Shown here piece by piece: positions 1,766 through 36,991 of a DNA stretch of 64,000 bases. Positions within the stretch are counted from its first letter, which is position 1. Every line of letters starts with the position of its first letter. This DNA is from Myxococcota bacterium (lineage in GTDB: Bacteria; Myxococcota_C; UBA6777): NCBI GenBank assembly GCA_023150835.1, contig JAKLKB010000024.1, forward strand, positions 11,106-75,105. The letters run 5' to 3'. The notes under the pieces were generated by a model that was not told where the DNA came from, searched no databases, and saw only the letters and a program-made list of their open reading frames with translations. Position numbers and translations under genes: made by a program.

Positions 1766-2079
1766 CTCCTCCCCTCATCGAAAAAACACCTTGAGTCCCC
1801 TTCTTTTTTCGTTGCGATCTCCGCCGACTGTGTAGTTTTCGTAACACTTGTACAAGAAAAAAGATCGTGGTATGACAGCCACGCGTTACGCCGCAATGCC
1901 ATTCAGTGCGTGACCAAGCAAGAGGAGGTGCTGGGTTTCGCAAGGATTCTTTTGGACTTGTTTGGTGCGCGTAGCGCTTGAATAACAAGCCATTGAGATG
2001 CCTTAGAACACATCATCTTGAGAAAAACATTGAAGAGGCGGAGGTGTCGCTGCGTTTTGCATGAGGGAGTTTTACATCG

Positions 2080-2739
2080 ATGAGGGCGTACGTCATGAGT
2101 GGGTATGATCGTTTTTCTGTAGGAGATCGAGGAAGCCTGTGGGTGGAGTCGCTGGTTTCTCCTTATCGGCGCGAAACCATCGAGGCATTGGGGGATTGTG
2201 CGGGAGGGGCTGTATTGGATCTCGCTTGTGGAGAAGGTGAGAACTTTGATCACTGGCGTTTGGGGTCGAAACATGCGCCCGCATGGGTGATCGGTGTGGA
2301 CGCCTCGATCCGCAAGCTGCGCGAAGCCCACCAGCGCGTCCGTCAAGGCGGGTGGAAAAATGCAGTCCTTCTGCAAACCGAAGATTATGCTTTGGAACAG
2401 CCGTTGTTTTCGGAGTATTGGCGAAGCGATGGTTTTGATGGCGTGGTGTGTACGTTGGGGCTGACGGCTCTCCAAGATTGGGAACAAGTGTTCTCAAGAT
2501 CTTTTTCCTTATTGAAGCCGGGTGGGCGATTCGCGATCTTGGATCGCTATACCAGCAAAGACGAATCCAATCCCGCTTCCGAAGGCACCAGTCCCGCGCC
2601 CGATTTTACACGCCGTGTCTGGGAATCCTTGGAACGTGCTTGCGATGACTTCCAGATGCGCTTTTTGGATGCTTCCCCCCGCGCTCTCGGCGGAAACCTC
2701 TATCTCGCTTCGGGAAGACGCAAACTGATCGCCCACTAG
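2080..2739 (+). CDS. SAM-dependent class I methyltransferase
   Basis: A 219-residue Rossmann-fold methyltransferase. VLDLACGEGENFDHW (about residues 45-59) is motif I, the glycine-rich SAM-binding loop. VIGVDAS is the acidic end of strand 2, FDGVVCTLGLTALQDW is motif II/III, and LLKPGGRFAILDRY is the post-motif signature common in methyltransferase type-11/25 families. The substrate cannot be read from the sequence. ATG at 2080 has a weak GGGAG upstream, while an in-frame ATG at 2095 is preceded by GAGGG, so the start is uncertain by five codons. It stands alone, with repeat DNA on both sides, and has no visible operon partner. Confidence 0.85.
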   Translation: MRAYVMSGYDRFSVGDRGSLWVESLVSPYRRETIEALGDCAGGAVLDLACGEGENFDHWRLGSKHAPAWVIGVDASIRKLREAHQRVRQGGWKNAVLLQTEDYALEQPLFSEYWRSDGFDGVVCTLGLTALQDWEQVFSRSFSLLKPGGRFAILDRYTSKDESNPASEGTSPAPDFTRRVWESLERACDDFQMRFLDASPRALGGNLYLASGRRKLIAH

Positions 2740-2837
2740 ATCGCGCTTGCTTTTTTCTCCAATCGTTCCGCATCGACAGATATCGCCAAAACATCTTGAT
2801 AGGGCCCGGGTATGGGGTTTTTGTCTACTGATCCGCC

Positions 2838-3022
2838 CGTTGTGTGCGACCTATGTAGGGGCAGCCCCCTGTGGCTGCCCAATAAAAGGGCGTCTGCGTA
2901 AAGATGTAGGGGCAGCCCTCTGTGGCTGCCCAATAAAAGGGCGTCTGTGTAAAGATGTAGGGGCAGCCCCCTGTGGCTGCCCAATAAAAGGGCGTCTACA
3001 GCAGATCGCACCTACCCTTCCC
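2838..3022 (+). repeat. TIR/hairpin repeat element with core amplified three times
   Basis: The left end reads GATCCGCCCGTTGTGTGCG, as in the complete element at 17659. The hairpin core GTAGGGGCAGCC...GGCTGCCC then occurs at 2855-2880, 2906-2931 and 2957-2982, a 51-nt period. The right arm GGGCGTCTACAGCAGATCGC matches the copies at 49138-49502. This is one element whose core has been tandemly amplified. It ends just before the ribosome binding site of msrA. Confidence 0.8.
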
Positions 3023-3045
3023 TATCAAAAGAAGGAGGCGTTTCG

Positions 3046-3744
3046 ATGCGTTTGTTTGTATTCGTGAGTTTGTTTGGCCTTTTGCTTGCCAAGGTGGAGA
3101 TGTGTTCGACCCATCCATCGCTACCCGCTGAAGTGCGTGCGGAAACACCCGCCCAAGAAGACAAGTATGCGATCCCACCGCTGCCGCGTGTTCCAAACGG
3201 CGCAGAAGTGGCGATCTTTGCGGGCGGATGCTTTTGGTGCGTCCAACCTCCTTTTGACAAACAAAAAGGCGTGCTTGCCACAAGCGTCGGATTCACGGGC
3301 GGCAGCGAAAAGAACCCCACCTACAAAGACGTTGCCTACGGGCGAACCAGCCACACCGAAGCCTTGTTTGTGGTGTACGATCCAAAGCAGGTCACTTACG
3401 AAAAACTCTTGGATATCTTTTGGCGACAGATCCAACCCAACCAAAAAAACGGCCAATTTGCCGATATCGGGACGCAATATCGAACGGGGATTTTTTATAC
3501 AAACGCGGCCCAACGCCGCGCCGCTGAAGCCTCGAAAAAAGCCATCGCTGCGAGCGGTTGCTTTCTTGCCGATATCGCCGTCGAGATCTCCAAGGCCACC
3601 CCGTTTTATCCCGCAGAAAATTACCATCAAAAGTATTATCAAAAAAATCCTTCACATTATCTGCGCTACAAGATCGGCTCGGGGCGAGCAGGTTATCTCG
3701 CCGCTCGCTGGACAGAAAAAGGCTGTCGCCCCCTCCCCAAATAA
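3046..3744 (+). CDS. msrA: Peptide-methionine (S)-S-oxide reductase MsrA, exported
   Basis: MsrA reduces methionine-S-sulfoxide in proteins. AIFAGGCFWCVQPPFD (about residues 56-71) contains the GCFWC signature with the catalytic cysteine. GFTGG, the HTEAL segment and the YHQKY tail are further MsrA hallmarks. Compared with cytosolic MsrA, the 232-residue protein has an extra N-terminal 50 residues starting with a hydrophobic signal-like stretch (MRLFVFVSLFGLLLAKV), so it probably repairs proteins in the envelope. There is a Cys shortly after, but no clean lipobox. GAAGGAGG sits upstream of ATG 3046. No MsrB partner is present in the window. Confidence 0.93.
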   Translation: MRLFVFVSLFGLLLAKVEMCSTHPSLPAEVRAETPAQEDKYAIPPLPRVPNGAEVAIFAGGCFWCVQPPFDKQKGVLATSVGFTGGSEKNPTYKDVAYGRTSHTEALFVVYDPKQVTYEKLLDIFWRQIQPNQKNGQFADIGTQYRTGIFYTNAAQRRAAEASKKAIAASGCFLADIAVEISKATPFYPAENYHQKYYQKNPSHYLRYKIGSGRAGYLAARWTEKGCRPLPK

Positions 3745-3914: not shown

Positions 3915-6236
3915 TCAGCGCTTGGCAGGTTGTGGCAAAGCCCGATGTTCCGAATGGGTGGCTGGGTCTGCGGCTTTGGCTACCACAAGCCGCTTGAGAG
4001 CCAACGCCGCGCTAACGCGTACTTCGTTATCTGTGTCCTCAAGAACCTCCTTCAACGCGGAAAGCACTTCTTTGGAACCCACCCCCACCTCGCCCAAGGC
4101 TTTTGCTGCGTTCTTGCGAACCAAACCATCTACGTCGCTGAGGGCGAAGATCAGCGCAGGGATCGCCGCACGAGCTTCTCCCTTCATCTTGCCCAGCGCC
4201 ACGGCTGTATCGTGGCGCAGTTTGTTCTCCGCGTCCTTGAGGAACCGAACCAAGGTCGGGATCGCTACACGAGCTTCCACACCTATCCCACCCAATGCCT
4301 GCACAGCATTTCTGCGAACCTCCCCGCCCTTGCGTCGAAGAGTTGAAAGAAGCAACGGCACCGCCGCCACCCCCATCTTCCCCAAGGCCCACACGATATC
4401 TCGGTGAACCCAACTTTCCCCGTCCTCAAGCCCCCGAATCAAGGCTGGAATCGCTTCTTTGGCTCCCACTCCCATCTTCCCCAAGGCCAAGGCCGCTCCC
4501 TTACGAGCGAAACTCTTTTTGTATTTGAGCGTCCGAATCAAGGCTGGGAGCGCGGCTTTTGCTTTTCCTCCCATCTTACCCAAAGCTAGGGCCGCATGAT
4601 AGGAGACGACGCCATCTTTATCCTTGAGAGTTCGAATCAAGGCAGGGATCGCAGAAGTGGCCTCAACGCTCATTTCCCCCAAGGCTTCGGCCACATCCTT
4701 ACGAACCCCGCTATCCTTGTCTTTGAGTAACCGAATCAATGTAGGGATCGCGGCTTTGGCTTCCGCCCCCATCTTCCCCAAAGCCCTTGCCGCGCTCCTG
4801 CGAACCCAGTAATCCCCATCACCGAGCGCCCGAATCAAGGCCGAGAGCGCAGCACGAGCCTCCGCTCCCATCCCAACTAACGCCTTCGCTGCATTCCAAC
4901 GAACATCGCTATCCGTGTCTTGTAGGGCTGCGATCAACGTCGGAACCGCCAACCCGCCGATCATTCCTAACGCCGATGCCGCGTACAAGCGAACGAAGCG
5001 ATCTCTGTCCTTGATCGCCTGAGCCAGAGCAGGGATCGCCACATGGGCCTCCCTTCCGATCCTTCCCAACGCCTGTGATGCACTCAAACGAACGTTGTTA
5101 TCCTTGTCTTGGAGAGCCTGAATCAGCGCAGGGAGCGCCGATCGAGCCTTCCTTCTCATACCCCCCAACGCAAAGATCGCAGCGTCACGAACATCGCTCT
5201 CCGTCTCGTTCAGCAGTCGCAACAGCAACGGCATCGCTGCATCGGCCTCTGCCTCCACCCCGATTTGCCCCAACGCAAAGGCTGCTTTTTTTTGGACATC
5301 CTTCTCTTTGTCTTGGAGAGCACGGAGCAGGGCTGGAATGGCTGCCTTCGCTCTTGCTTTCATCTCGCCTAGAGCCTCCGCTGCACCAACACGAACCTTT
5401 TTGTCCTTGTGTTGGAGGGCCTTGATCAGCGGCGCAACCGCTTCCTCGCCCATCAAACCCAAGGCCCAAACACCTCCCCTGTGATCGTCGCTGTTTGGGC
5501 TTTGAAGGAGTTCGATCAACAGCGGTATCATCCACTCGCCCATCTTCCGCAAGGCCAAGGCTCCACGAACGCGGATCTCGCGATGCTTTCCTCTAATTTG
5601 ATCAAGGAGGACAGGCAGCGCACCTTTGGCCGCCACACCCATCTTCGCTAACGCCTCCGCTGCCTCCAAGCCCACGTCGCGTTCTGGATCATCAAGAGCC
5701 GTGATCAGGGATGGGATCGCCTTCGTTCCTATTCGGCCCAAAGCATAGACCGCGCCCTTACGGACCAGACGTTCATGGTTCTTGAGTGATTCGACCAAGA
5801 CAGGGAGTGCCGCATCTGCCGACTCTCCCATCAAACCCAAGGCCCACACAACACGAGCGCGAACCTCCCCGTCTTTGTCCTTGACTGCTTGAACGAGCGC
5901 TGGGAACGCTGCACGAGCCTTCGGCCCGATCTTTCCCAACGCCCATGCTGCATACGAACGCACAGAGCGATCCCTGTCCTTGAGCGCCCGAATCAGCGCT
6001 GGGATCGCCGCTTTCGCCTCTTTTCCCATCCTCCCCAAGGCCCACGCTGCGTTTACGCGGGCTGAACTCTTCTTGCTCTGAAGTTGTTTTTGTAGGCCGA
6101 TAATTCGGTCGGTATTGCCCGCGTGAACTTTGGGGGAGAGGATAGTCAAGAGCCAGACAGCCACAAAAATTCGCCATCCTTGCTCCTGCATCCTCTTCCA
6201 TCGTCTCGTAAAAATCCGATGCGTCGTGCTTTCCAT
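3915..6236 (-). CDS. Exported HEAT-repeat protein, 22 repeats
   Basis: After an N-terminal basic region and hydrophobic segment (IFVAVWLLTILSPKVHA, likely cleaved after VHA), the 773-residue protein consists of about 22 consecutive repeats of 31 residues. Each has the PBS-lyase-type HEAT consensus AIPALIRALKD, a variable turn, then VRxxAAxALGKMG. Such arrays form a curved solenoid that binds proteins; no catalytic domain is present. ATG 6236 is preferred because AAAGGAG lies 9 nt upstream and it places the signal sequence near the N-terminus. It lies 53 nt downstream of the ClpX-like gene on the same strand, so the two are likely co-transcribed, although the signal peptide would put the products in different compartments. 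Confidence 0.85.
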   Translation of the reverse strand: MESTTHRIFTRRWKRMQEQGWRIFVAVWLLTILSPKVHAGNTDRIIGLQKQLQSKKSSARVNAAWALGRMGKEAKAAIPALIRALKDRDRSVRSYAAWALGKIGPKARAAFPALVQAVKDKDGEVRARVVWALGLMGESADAALPVLVESLKNHERLVRKGAVYALGRIGTKAIPSLITALDDPERDVGLEAAEALAKMGVAAKGALPVLLDQIRGKHREIRVRGALALRKMGEWMIPLLIELLQSPNSDDHRGGVWALGLMGEEAVAPLIKALQHKDKKVRVGAAEALGEMKARAKAAIPALLRALQDKEKDVQKKAAFALGQIGVEAEADAAMPLLLRLLNETESDVRDAAIFALGGMRRKARSALPALIQALQDKDNNVRLSASQALGRIGREAHVAIPALAQAIKDRDRFVRLYAASALGMIGGLAVPTLIAALQDTDSDVRWNAAKALVGMGAEARAALSALIRALGDGDYWVRRSAARALGKMGAEAKAAIPTLIRLLKDKDSGVRKDVAEALGEMSVEATSAIPALIRTLKDKDGVVSYHAALALGKMGGKAKAALPALIRTLKYKKSFARKGAALALGKMGVGAKEAIPALIRGLEDGESWVHRDIVWALGKMGVAAVPLLLSTLRRKGGEVRRNAVQALGGIGVEARVAIPTLVRFLKDAENKLRHDTAVALGKMKGEARAAIPALIFALSDVDGLVRKNAAKALGEVGVGSKEVLSALKEVLEDTDNEVRVSAALALKRLVVAKAADPATHSEHRALPQPAKR

Positions 6237-6289: not shown

Positions 6290-7771
6290 CTAAATCGGTG
6301 TGATCCAAAGGGCAGAAGTGGGATGGTGGCCTTCAACGATATCGCGGGTGAGCGTCAGGGTGCGGATGCCTTCTCGCGAAGGGATCTCATAGAGGATATC
6401 GAGCATGAGCTCTTCGAGGATCATGCGCAATCCGCGTGCGCCGACTTTTTGGCGCAAGGCTTTTTCCGCGATGGCATCAAGGGCTGCCGGTTCAAAGACA
6501 AGCTGGACGCCTTCAAAGGACAACATCTGCTTGTATTGGGCGACGAGGCTGTTTTTGGGTTCCGTCAAGATCCGCACCAGCGCCGCATGATCGAGCGGAT
6601 CGAGTGTTGCGCATACAGGCAACCGCCCGATCAACTCGGGCAACATCCCGTAGCGAACGAGGTCTTCGGGCAAGACTTGTCGGAGTAGATCGTCGGTGGA
6701 TACGACCGATGCAAGCAGATCGCCGATCGCTTGTTCTTGCCCTGCAAGGCGGCGAGCGATGATCTCTTCAATGCCTACGAAGGCTCCACCACAGATGAAA
6801 AGGATGTTGGATGTATCGATCTGTACGCCCTCATCGCCTGATTGGCTGCGCCCCCGTGTACCCGGCAGGATGGCGCTTGTACCTTCGAGCAGTTTGAGCA
6901 GAGATTGTTGGACGCCTTCACCGGAGATATCCCGTGTGGCCGAAGCGGAGGGCTTTCGAGCGATCTTGTCGATCTCGTCGATGTAGAGGATCCCCCGTTC
7001 GGTTCTTTGCTTGTCGCCTTCTGCCGCTTGGTAAAGCCGCGTCAACATCTGTTCGACATCTTGGCCGACGTAGCCCGCTTCGGTCAGCGATGTCGCGTCG
7101 GCCATCGCAAACGGAACATGCAGACTGCGCGCAAGAGATTGTGCCAACAGCGTCTTTCCTGTGCCGCTTGGCCCGATCAACAGCACATTCGATTTGTGCA
7201 GTTCAACCCCGTAAGCAGGGCGCTTTTGCATGTATTCCACACGGTGATAATGGCTGTACACGGCCACCGCAAGTTTCTTTTTGGCCTGTTCTTGGGCGAT
7301 TACATACCGATCCAGAAACTCCTTGATGGCGCGTGGGGTCGGAGCGTAGCCACAAGGGCGCTTTGGCAACGGAGGCGCGGAACGCACAGACGAAGAAGGC
7401 TCCTCGTGTATCGGTTGCGAAAGCGGCGTAGGCTCCTCGTGTATCGGTTGCGAAAGCGGCGTAGGCTCCTCGTGTATCGGTTGCGAAAGCGGCGTAGGCT
7501 CCGCGTGCATCGGTTGCGAAAGCGGCGTAGGCTCCGCGTGTATCGGTTGCGAAGGCGGCGTAGGCTCCGCGTGTATCGGTTGCGAAGGCGGCGTAGGCTC
7601 CGCGTGTATCGGTTGCGAAGGGGAGGGATGGAGGGGGGGGCCATCGTCGGGGGTCAAAGAGCGAAGGGTGAGCGGGTGGTTGTCCGCATCTTGCGCGATG
7701 AAGGGTTGGATCGATCGGGCTTCGGAAGATGCAGGAAAATGCACGCGTCGATGAGGGGCGATATCCTTCAA
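6290..7771 (-). CDS. ClpX-like AAA+ unfoldase lacking ClpP-docking features
   Basis: The C-terminal 350 residues are clearly ClpX-type AAA+: Walker A GPSGTGKT, pore loop GYVGQD, Walker [17 protein letters not shown] and the sensor-2 segment GARGLR. Three ClpX functions look lost. The four-cysteine zinc domain is replaced by a Pro/His/Glu-rich region with seven 11-residue repeats (SQPIHAEPTPP). The RKH loop ([10 protein letters not shown] in the clpX at 35741) is replaced by GRSQSGDEGVQ. The ClpP-binding IGF tripeptide reads IGD. It is therefore likely a ClpP-independent unfoldase or remodeller. The start is uncertain: TTG 7771 has GAAAGG 9 nt upstream, while a longer frame to 7978 runs through 40-nt tandem repeats. 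It lies between pyk and the HEAT-repeat gene. Confidence 0.85.
   Translation of the reverse strand: MKDIAPHRRVHFPASSEARSIQPFIAQDADNHPLTLRSLTPDDGPPLHPSPSQPIHAEPTPPSQPIHAEPTPPSQPIHAEPTPLSQPMHAEPTPLSQPIHEEPTPLSQPIHEEPTPLSQPIHEEPSSSVRSAPPLPKRPCGYAPTPRAIKEFLDRYVIAQEQAKKKLAVAVYSHYHRVEYMQKRPAYGVELHKSNVLLIGPSGTGKTLLAQSLARSLHVPFAMADATSLTEAGYVGQDVEQMLTRLYQAAEGDKQRTERGILYIDEIDKIARKPSASATRDISGEGVQQSLLKLLEGTSAILPGTRGRSQSGDEGVQIDTSNILFICGGAFVGIEEIIARRLAGQEQAIGDLLASVVSTDDLLRQVLPEDLVRYGMLPELIGRLPVCATLDPLDHAALVRILTEPKNSLVAQYKQMLSFEGVQLVFEPAALDAIAEKALRQKVGARGLRMILEELMLDILYEIPSREGIRTLTLTRDIVEGHHPTSALWITPI
7397..7622 (-). repeat. 33-nt in-frame tandem repeat inside the ClpX-like gene
   Basis: About seven copies of a 33-nt unit encode the 11-residue repeat SQPIHAEPTPP or SQPIHEEPTPL. 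Codon-level sequence is nearly identical between copies, so expansion is recent. It occupies the place where canonical ClpX carries its zinc-binding domain. Confidence 0.85.
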
Positions 7772-7835
7772 TGTTCGGAGCCTTTCGTTTGGGTGGGGTG
7801 GTGGGCGATTTGATCCGTTGCCGATCCCGAATGTA

Positions 7836-7977
7836 CGACAGTAGGTGGTTTGAGCCGAGTGTACGACAGTGGGCGATTTGAGCCGTTGTCGAACCCGATC
7901 GTACGATAGTGGGTGGTTTGGGCCGTTGTCGAACCCGATCGTACGATAGTGGGTGGTTTGGGCCGTTGTCGAACCCA
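7836..7977. repeat. 40-nt tandem repeat between pyk and the ClpX-like gene
   Basis: Three and a half copies of a 40-nt unit contain GTACGATAGTGGGTGGTTTG. The period is not a multiple of three, which argues against the longer N-terminal reading of the ClpX-like gene through this array. The array starts directly at the pyk stop codon. Confidence 0.85.
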
Positions 7978-7980
7978 AGG

Positions 7981-9494: not shown

Positions 9495-9945
9495 GATAAG
9501 GCGCGTATGGGGGCCTGCCCCTACGAAACACCGTGTGATTTCCAATACGTAGGGGCAACCATGTGTGGTTGCCCTGTTGCTGGGGTTCGTTCAAAACGTG
9601 TGATTCCCAACACGTAGGGGCAACCCCCTGTGGTTGCCCTGTTGTTGGGGTTCGTTCAAAACAGACGGCGATGAAGAGGTCACCGACGCAACAGATCGAG
9701 GGCAGGCACACCTGTCTGCCCCTACGAAGCACCGTGCGATTTCCAATACGTAGGGGCAACCATGTGTGGCTGCCCTGTTGTTGGGGTTCGTTCAAAACAG
9801 ACGGCGATGAAGAGGTCACCGACGCAACAGATCGAGGGCAGGCACACCTGTCTGCCCCTACGAAACACCGTGCGATTTCCAACACGTAGGGGCAACCAGG
9901 TGTGGCTGCCCTGTTGTTGGGGTTCGTTCAAAACAGATTCCTCGA
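9495..9945. repeat. Hairpin repeat array with 136-nt tandem units
   Basis: The 692-base gap between pyk and the NADAR gene is repeat DNA. GTAGGGGCAACC...GGTTGCCC hairpins at about 9550 and 9614 are followed by two 136-nt units starting at 9638 and 9774 and a partial third at 9910. Each unit carries GGTTCGTTCAAAACAGACGG, a GGGCAGG/CCTGTCTGCCC hairpin and a GTAGGGGCAACC hairpin. Long open frames here (GCPVVGVRSKQT-like) are translated repeats, not genes. Confidence 0.85.
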
Positions 9946-35740: not shown

Positions 35741-36991
35741 ATGTCCAAACAGAAAGGCCAATCGAACAAGCGACTTAGCTGTTCGTTTTGTCACAAGAAC
35801 CAACATGAAGTACGAAAGCTGATCGCTGGACCCAACGTATACATCTGCGATGAGTGTGTGCAACTGTGCAACGACATCATCGCCAACGCATTTGACCCCG
35901 AAGAAGCACGCCCGTCACTGGATATCCCCAAGCCGATCGAGATCAAAGAATTTTTGGATCAGTACGTCATTGGTCAAGATCTTGCGAAAAAAGTCCTGTC
36001 TGTCGCGGTGTATAACCATTACAAGCGGGTCGAATGCCGGCCTCGTACGGGGGAAGTCGAACTTCAAAAGTCGAATATCTTGTTGGTGGGACCGACAGGT
36101 TCAGGGAAAACGTTGCTTGCACAAAGCCTCGCACGTTTTCTGGACGTGCCTTTTGCGATGGCCGATGCAACGACCTTGACCGAGGCCGGTTATGTCGGCG
36201 AAGACGTCGAGAATGTGTTGGTGAGCCTATTACAAGCCTCGGATTACAAGCTGGAGCGAGCCGAGCGAGGCATCGTATACATCGACGAGATCGACAAGAT
36301 CGCTCGAAAAAGTGAATCCGCTTCGATCACTCGCGATGTTTCTGGCGAAGGCGTTCAACAAGCCTTGTTGCGGATGCTGGAGGGGACGGTTGCCAATGTC
36401 CCCGCCAAAGGGGGCCGCAAACATCCCCACCAAGAGTTTATCCAGCTCGACACCACGAATATCTTGTTTGTGGTGGGCGGAGCTTTTCACGGCATCGAGA
36501 AGATGATCGAAAAGCGGATCGCAGGAAGTCAGATCGGATTCCATGCGACTGTCCGTAGCAAGAAAGACTTTCGACTGGGTGAGCTTCTGCATCAAAGCGA
36601 ACCCGAGGACCTAATTAAGTTTGGTTTGATCCCCGAGTTTGTTGGACGCTTGCCTGTGGTGGCCACGATGGATGATCTCGACGAAGCCTCTTTGCTTCGT
36701 ATCCTCAAAGAGCCTAAAAATGCGCTGGTTCGGCAGTACGAAAAACTCTTTATGATGGAAGGCGTCGCGCTACACTTCACCGAAGAAGCGCTCAAGGCGA
36801 TCGCCAAAAAATGCATGGAACGCCAAAGCGGCGCACGCGGCTTGCGCGCCATCATGGAATCCGTCATGCTCGACGTGATGTACGATCTCCCCTCCCTTGA
36901 AGGCGTCAAAGAGTGCATCATCGACGCCGACGTCGTTCTCCATAGCGCCCCACCCACCATGATCTACAAAGAACACAAAAAATCCGCTTGA
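35741..36991 (+). CDS. clpX: ATP-dependent Clp protease ATP-binding subunit ClpX
   Basis: Canonical ClpX of 416 residues, the unfoldase that feeds ClpP. The N-terminal zinc domain has CSFCHKNQ and ICDECVQLC (about residues 14-45). The AAA+ domain shows Walker A GPTGSGKT, pore loop GYVGED, Walker [12 protein letters not shown], the RKH loop [10 protein letters not shown], the ClpP-binding IGF loop ([10 protein letters not shown]) and sensor 2 GARGLR. Every functional loop is intact, in contrast to the paralogue at 6290-7771. clpP is not in this window. It is transcribed divergently from the sigma-54 activator; TTGACA at 35641-35646 might be its -35, but the -10 is poor. Confidence 0.97.

Follow-up and report, generated by a model that had tools for sequence, protein, structure and literature searches.

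A ClpX-lineage AAA+ protein without the zinc domain and the IGF motif in Myxococcota_C, a candidate ClpP-uncoupled unfoldase

Introduction

The contact between ClpX and ClpP has been described for Escherichia coli, where the IGF loop packs its residues I268, F270 and V274 into ClpP, and where, in the account given in PMC7112951, the substitutions I268L, F270L and V274A cause severe ClpP-binding defects and an altered loop length lowers the affinity for ClpP. Replacement of the RKH motif of ClpX by AAA abolished the degradation of an ssrA substrate and made ATP hydrolysis about fivefold faster (PMC7112951). In Streptococcus pneumoniae, the I267E substitution, which is used for uncoupling ClpX from ClpP, leaves the ATPase in place and blocks proteolysis by ClpXP (PMC12211083).

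Natural ClpX homologs that lack one or several of these elements are also known. Yeast MCX1 has no IGF motif, and its role is believed to be that of an unfoldase only; mitochondrial ClpX unfolds ALA synthase to a limited extent and thereby activates the enzyme (PMC10886707, PMC7077987). Myxococcus xanthus contains an extra, unlinked copy, ClpX3 (MXAN_2743), which is 43.5% identical to E. coli ClpX and in which neither an N-terminal domain nor an RKH motif is present; the gene can be deleted but is required for normal growth at 36 °C, and the IGF motif is not mentioned in its description (PMC11423568). A search of open-licence full-text papers brought up no bacterial clade of ClpX proteins devoid of IGF.

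Here, we describe a ClpX-type gene, clpX-C, located at positions 6290 to 7771 on the reverse strand of the window, by which we mean the whole 64,000-nucleotide stretch that was analysed from contig JAKLKB010000024.1 of a Myxococcota bacterium (GTDB phylum Myxococcota_C). The comparison within the phylum covered five genomes from one family and three genera, here called G000 (the genome of the window), G001 (its congener), G002, G003 and G004.

Results

ClpX and ClpP genes in the genome

Among the 239 contigs of the assembly, which total 7.56 Mb, we counted four ClpX-type genes, here called clpX-A to clpX-D, as well as genes for HslU and two ClpP proteins. ClpX-A is canonical, and its gene adjoins clpP and a trigger-factor-like gene elsewhere in the genome than the window. 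The gene for ClpX-B, a second full-length ClpX with zinc domain, RKH and IGF, is located at 35741 to 36991 on the forward strand of the window. The initial annotation had reported an intact clpX beside a second ClpX-type ATPase in the same window; both are there and the gene at 35741 to 36991 is complete, but this intact copy is not linked to clpP. ClpX-D is a distant zinc-less and RKH-less copy that retains LGF or IGF. It is encoded at 1942 to 3078 on the forward strand of locus L010 and also at loci L061 to L064, so that all five genomes of the phylum contain it, and it has relatives in other phyla (L183, L190).

Two further observations were made at related loci. A zinc-bearing relative, ClpX-E, encoded in G004 (L065, 2280 to 3440, reverse strand), has Walker B changed to LLILDGMQ and sensor 2 changed from GAR to GAW, and the IGF loop is missing; this degenerate protein is probably ATPase-dead. 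Near clpX-A, clpP and tig on contig C235 of G000, a gene for a UDP-glucose/GDP-mannose dehydrogenase (L009, 2869 to 4953, reverse strand) was split by an intein-like insert, for which the match to PF14890 was below the cut-off of that profile.

ClpX-C belongs to the ClpX lineage and retains the motor motifs

The open reading frame was found at the coordinates given by the initial annotation and the gene is real. It encodes 493 amino acids from a TTG codon at position 7771, nine bases downstream of a Shine-Dalgarno-like GAAAGG (7786 to 7781), and since both are unchanged in the congener G001, the annotated start is supported; an upstream extension to the TTG at 7978 would cross 28- and 40-bp intergenic repeats. 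Membership in ClpX was assigned by scores above the cut-offs of the curated NCBIfam profiles, which were 489.6 bits for PRK05342 (cut-off 359) and 471.8 bits for TIGR00382 (cut-off 370.75).

The closest solved structures were likewise ClpX chains. The AAA+ core of ClpX-C (residues 142 to 483; 6323 to 7348, reverse strand) was modelled by AlphaFold2 with a mean pLDDT of 76, and the first Foldseek matches to this model were the ClpX chains of ClpXP structures, with E-values from 1e-36 to 1e-30. The TM-scores to these chains were near 0.5 with large rmsd values, which suggests that the two AAA+ subdomains are turned differently in the model, so that the comparison supports the fold only. By descent, ClpX-C is a ClpX-lineage protein, which is not to be filed as a ClpXP subunit.

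In the alignment, the motifs of the AAA+ motor were intact, as the initial annotation had proposed. These are, all on the reverse strand, Walker A (GPSGTGKT, residues 200 to 207; 7151 to 7174), the pore-1 loop (GYVG, residues 233 to 236; 7064 to 7075), which is GYMG in G003 and G004, Walker B (ILYIDE, within the longer stretch ILYIDEID, residues 261 to 266; 6974 to 6991) and the GAR of sensor 2 (residues 444 to 446; 6434 to 6442).

The zinc domain is missing and the repeats do not replace it

The C4 zinc domain is absent from ClpX-C: a search of the whole genome with PF06689 yielded matches above the cut-off in ClpX-A and ClpX-B only, Pfam scans of three ClpX-C proteins detected no zinc domain, and it was missing in all four orthologs. 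The same genome-wide search rules out a zinc domain concealed upstream or in another frame. In place of this domain, the initial annotation had seen seven PIHAEP repeats. These units correspond to a 33-bp minisatellite of 6.8 copies with a 97% match (7397 to 7619, reverse strand), translated as SQPIHxEPTP[PL] and located in a low-complexity N-terminal extension. The minisatellite is specific to the genus, with about two degenerate units in the G001 protein and none in the orthologs of G003 and G004. Since the repeats are scarce or absent in orthologs that all lack the zinc domain, the loss of the domain stands but its substitution by the repeats does not, and a role for them as a functional stand-in was rejected; from these comparisons, they are read as a recent expansion within the low-complexity extension rather than a replacement domain.

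The IGF motif is lost in all orthologs and the RKH motif in one genus

At the position of the IGF loop, ClpX-C contains AGQEQAIGDLLASVVSTDD (residues 343 to 361; 6689 to 6745, reverse strand), from which IGF is absent. None of the four ClpX-C orthologs, which cover all three genera, contained IGF, whereas in the same alignment xGF was kept in 83 of 83 canonical ClpX proteins, in ClpX-A, ClpX-B and ClpX-D (5 of 5 each) and in all 14 zinc-less ClpX-like proteins of other phyla. In further sequence sets, two outliers to xGF were observed, YGY in L043 and MGI in L203. The replacement of IGF by IGD, as first proposed, is thus correct in the loss of IGF but not in the new motif, since the loops of G003 and G004 are of unrelated sequence and IGD is not conserved. 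Judged from the alignment, the conserved feature at this position is the absence of IGF and not the presence of IGD.

In the window protein, the loop can be aligned in more than one exact register, with either IGD or QAI in the place of IGF, as might be expected if the differences were an artefact of the alignment or of the gene call. However, xGF was found nowhere in the loop region of the four orthologs in any register, and the clpX-C locus has no zinc-domain match, which makes an artefact extremely improbable and also speaks against the concern, raised with the initial annotation, that the loops are merely misaligned.

The identity between genera was only 24% in the loop of ClpX-C compared with 66% in the remainder of the protein, the corresponding values being 62% and 81% for ClpX-A and 73% and 79% for ClpX-B. 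An altered loop could in principle still dock ClpP or another peptidase ring; in the AlphaFold2 model, this position is still a flexible loop, with a pLDDT of less than 50, and the genome contains a second ClpP. Neither the sequence nor the length of the loop is conserved between genera, though, which would be unexpected for a docking element under selection, and we regard such docking as quite unlikely.

The position of the RKH loop in the window protein is occupied by GRSQSGDEGVQ (residues 307 to 317; 6821 to 6853, reverse strand), as the initial annotation had noted. This applies to the window protein and not to the group, because the RKH motif is missing only in the genus of the window, G003 having RKH and G004 KKH. 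With RKH or KKH still present in the other two genera, its loss is read from the alignment as more recent, a later event than the loss of the zinc domain and IGF.

The changes in the window protein were concentrated in these loops. Of 113 near-invariant positions defined on 94 canonical ClpX proteins, 10 fall in the RKH and IGF loops and 103 in the rest of the protein; the window protein differed at 7 of the former and 7 of the latter (P = 9e-6, Fisher test), and the same test gave P = 0.005 for G003 and P = 0.0007 for G004, although these tests are not independent because the ClpX-C proteins are related.

Origin and selective constraint

Of the five genomes of the phylum, all but G002 contained an ortholog of ClpX-C, and all three genera were represented, two of the four orthologs being from congeners. 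They scored 731 to 750 bits with a profile built from the four sequences, while no ortholog was found among 381 genomes outside the phylum, in which the best match, at 533 bits, was a normal ClpX. The four proteins formed a single clade with an SH-aLRT support of 99, placed beside the ClpX of Acidobacteriota rather than ClpX-A or ClpX-B. An Acidobacteriota-like origin is suggested by the tree (SH-aLRT 95.5), and a duplication of ClpX-A or ClpX-B is not favoured by it, although approximately unbiased (AU) tests reject neither the grouping of ClpX-C with ClpX-A (P = 0.147) nor that with ClpX-B (P = 0.274).

The relationship to the paralogs also bears on whether ClpX-C could join ClpX-A or ClpX-B in mixed hexamers, where each ring would carry fewer IGF loops and fewer zinc domains and would in this way tune ClpXP activity or substrate choice. 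The AAA+ core is approximately 55% to 57% identical to ClpX-A and ClpX-B, and the ATP-binding and sensor motifs are all kept, which speaks for such rings. The grouping with Acidobacteriota-type ClpX speaks against it, within the limits set by the AU tests, and we consider mixed hexamers unlikely.

In the comparison of G000 with G001, dN/dS was 0.018 for ClpX-A, 0.027 for ClpX-B and 0.118 for the core of ClpX-C, and 0.35 to 0.56 for its N-terminal extension with the repeats. The core of ClpX-C thus behaves as a constrained, working protein, under weaker constraint than ClpX-A and ClpX-B. In favor of a paralog decaying towards a pseudogene are a dN/dS above that of ClpX-A and ClpX-B, an N-terminus full of minisatellite and the absence of the gene from G002. 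Nevertheless, the reading frame is open in four genomes and three genera, the dN/dS of the core is low, the catalytic motifs are all retained and the changes are clustered in two loops, so that decay appears very improbable.

Gene neighborhood

A comparison of the neighborhoods in G000, G001, G003 and G004 revealed no conserved operon partner of clpX-C that could serve as a clue to its substrate. The neighbors were pyk and a gene for a HEAT-repeat protein in G000 and G001, an anti-sigma-like gene in G003, and ion-channel and thioredoxin-like genes in G004; since the neighborhood differs between genera, it suggests no substrate. The HEAT-repeat protein directly downstream of clpX-C in the window (3915 to 6233, reverse strand) has 17 HEAT_2 stretches and a dN/dS of 0.525 versus G001, and it is probably secreted. 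Minisatellites flank pyk at 7827 to 7976 (28 and 40 bp) and at 9532 to 9937 (65 and 136 bp), the latter with units resembling GTAGGGGCAACCAC. In G003 only, a short sigma-region-4-like open reading frame and a zf-HC2 anti-sigma-like gene are located directly upstream of clpX-C (L052, 2220 to 4141, forward strand).

Discussion

We consider it probable that ClpX-C is a ClpX-derived, ATP-driven unfoldase or remodeler that does not pass its substrates to ClpP. The missing IGF motif strongly suggests that ClpX-C would not bind ClpP, and the case for uncoupling is built on the loss of IGF in every ortholog together with a motor that is intact and under purifying selection; it also counts in favor that ClpX-A and ClpX-B are still available as partners of ClpP. 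On the other side stand the weaker constraint on the core than on the paralogs, the unconserved neighborhood, the lack of the gene in G002 and the small number of orthologs, four. The ClpP-independent unfoldase of the initial annotation gains from the loss of IGF in four of four proteins over three genera while other ClpX-type groups keep xGF, as a reading of sequences. Its second element, substrates of its own, is plausible; because the loss of RKH is confined to one genus, it is the missing zinc domain that carries this idea for the group as a whole.

Such a protein would assemble into hexameric rings, thread selected proteins through the pore and let them go unfolded or remodeled. The outcome may be the disassembly of complexes or the loading of a cofactor, as for Mcx1 acting on ALA synthase, and degradation coupled to ClpP would be left to ClpX-A and ClpX-B. 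Adaptors that bind the zinc domain could not be used, this domain being missing, and in the genus of the window the loss of RKH should also lower the recognition of ssrA tags.

Compared with canonical ClpX, ClpX-C shares an AAA+ core of about 50% to 63% identity with Walker A and B, pore-1 and sensor 2, but has neither zinc domain nor IGF and, in the genus of the window, no RKH. The loss of the N-terminal domain and RKH has a precedent in M. xanthus ClpX3, which by its description (PMC11423568) resembles the window protein in both respects; zinc-less proteins of other phyla, such as L172 to L174, keep xGF, unlike ClpX-C. The I267E variant of S. pneumoniae is an engineered single change, whereas the loss of IGF in ClpX-C is natural and extends over the clade.

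The working mode of ClpX-C would be most like that of Mcx1, which is likewise described as a ClpX-family motor without IGF (PMC10886707). Mcx1 is, however, eukaryotic, and no ClpP is known from its organism, whereas the host of ClpX-C encodes two ClpP proteins together with two complete copies of ClpX; Mcx1 and ClpX-C likely arose independently, and membership of ClpX-C in the Mcx1 lineage does not appear likely. We lean slightly towards the broader reading that ClpX-C is a bacterial counterpart of Mcx1. In this reading, the ClpX unfoldases of the clade, found in one small phylum, are uncoupled from ClpP and dedicated to remodeling specific proteins rather than degrading them, beside an ordinary ClpXP.

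The ClpP-independent roles of bacterial ClpX have been called relatively unexplored (PMC12211083). This is partly because a single ClpX usually performs both jobs, and a natural ClpX without ClpP docking beside ordinary ClpX in one cell would represent a genetic separation of the two, with an order of loss that can be read across three genera, the zinc domain and IGF first and RKH afterwards. The substrates of ClpX-C would reveal the use that a bacterium makes of a pure ClpX remodeler.
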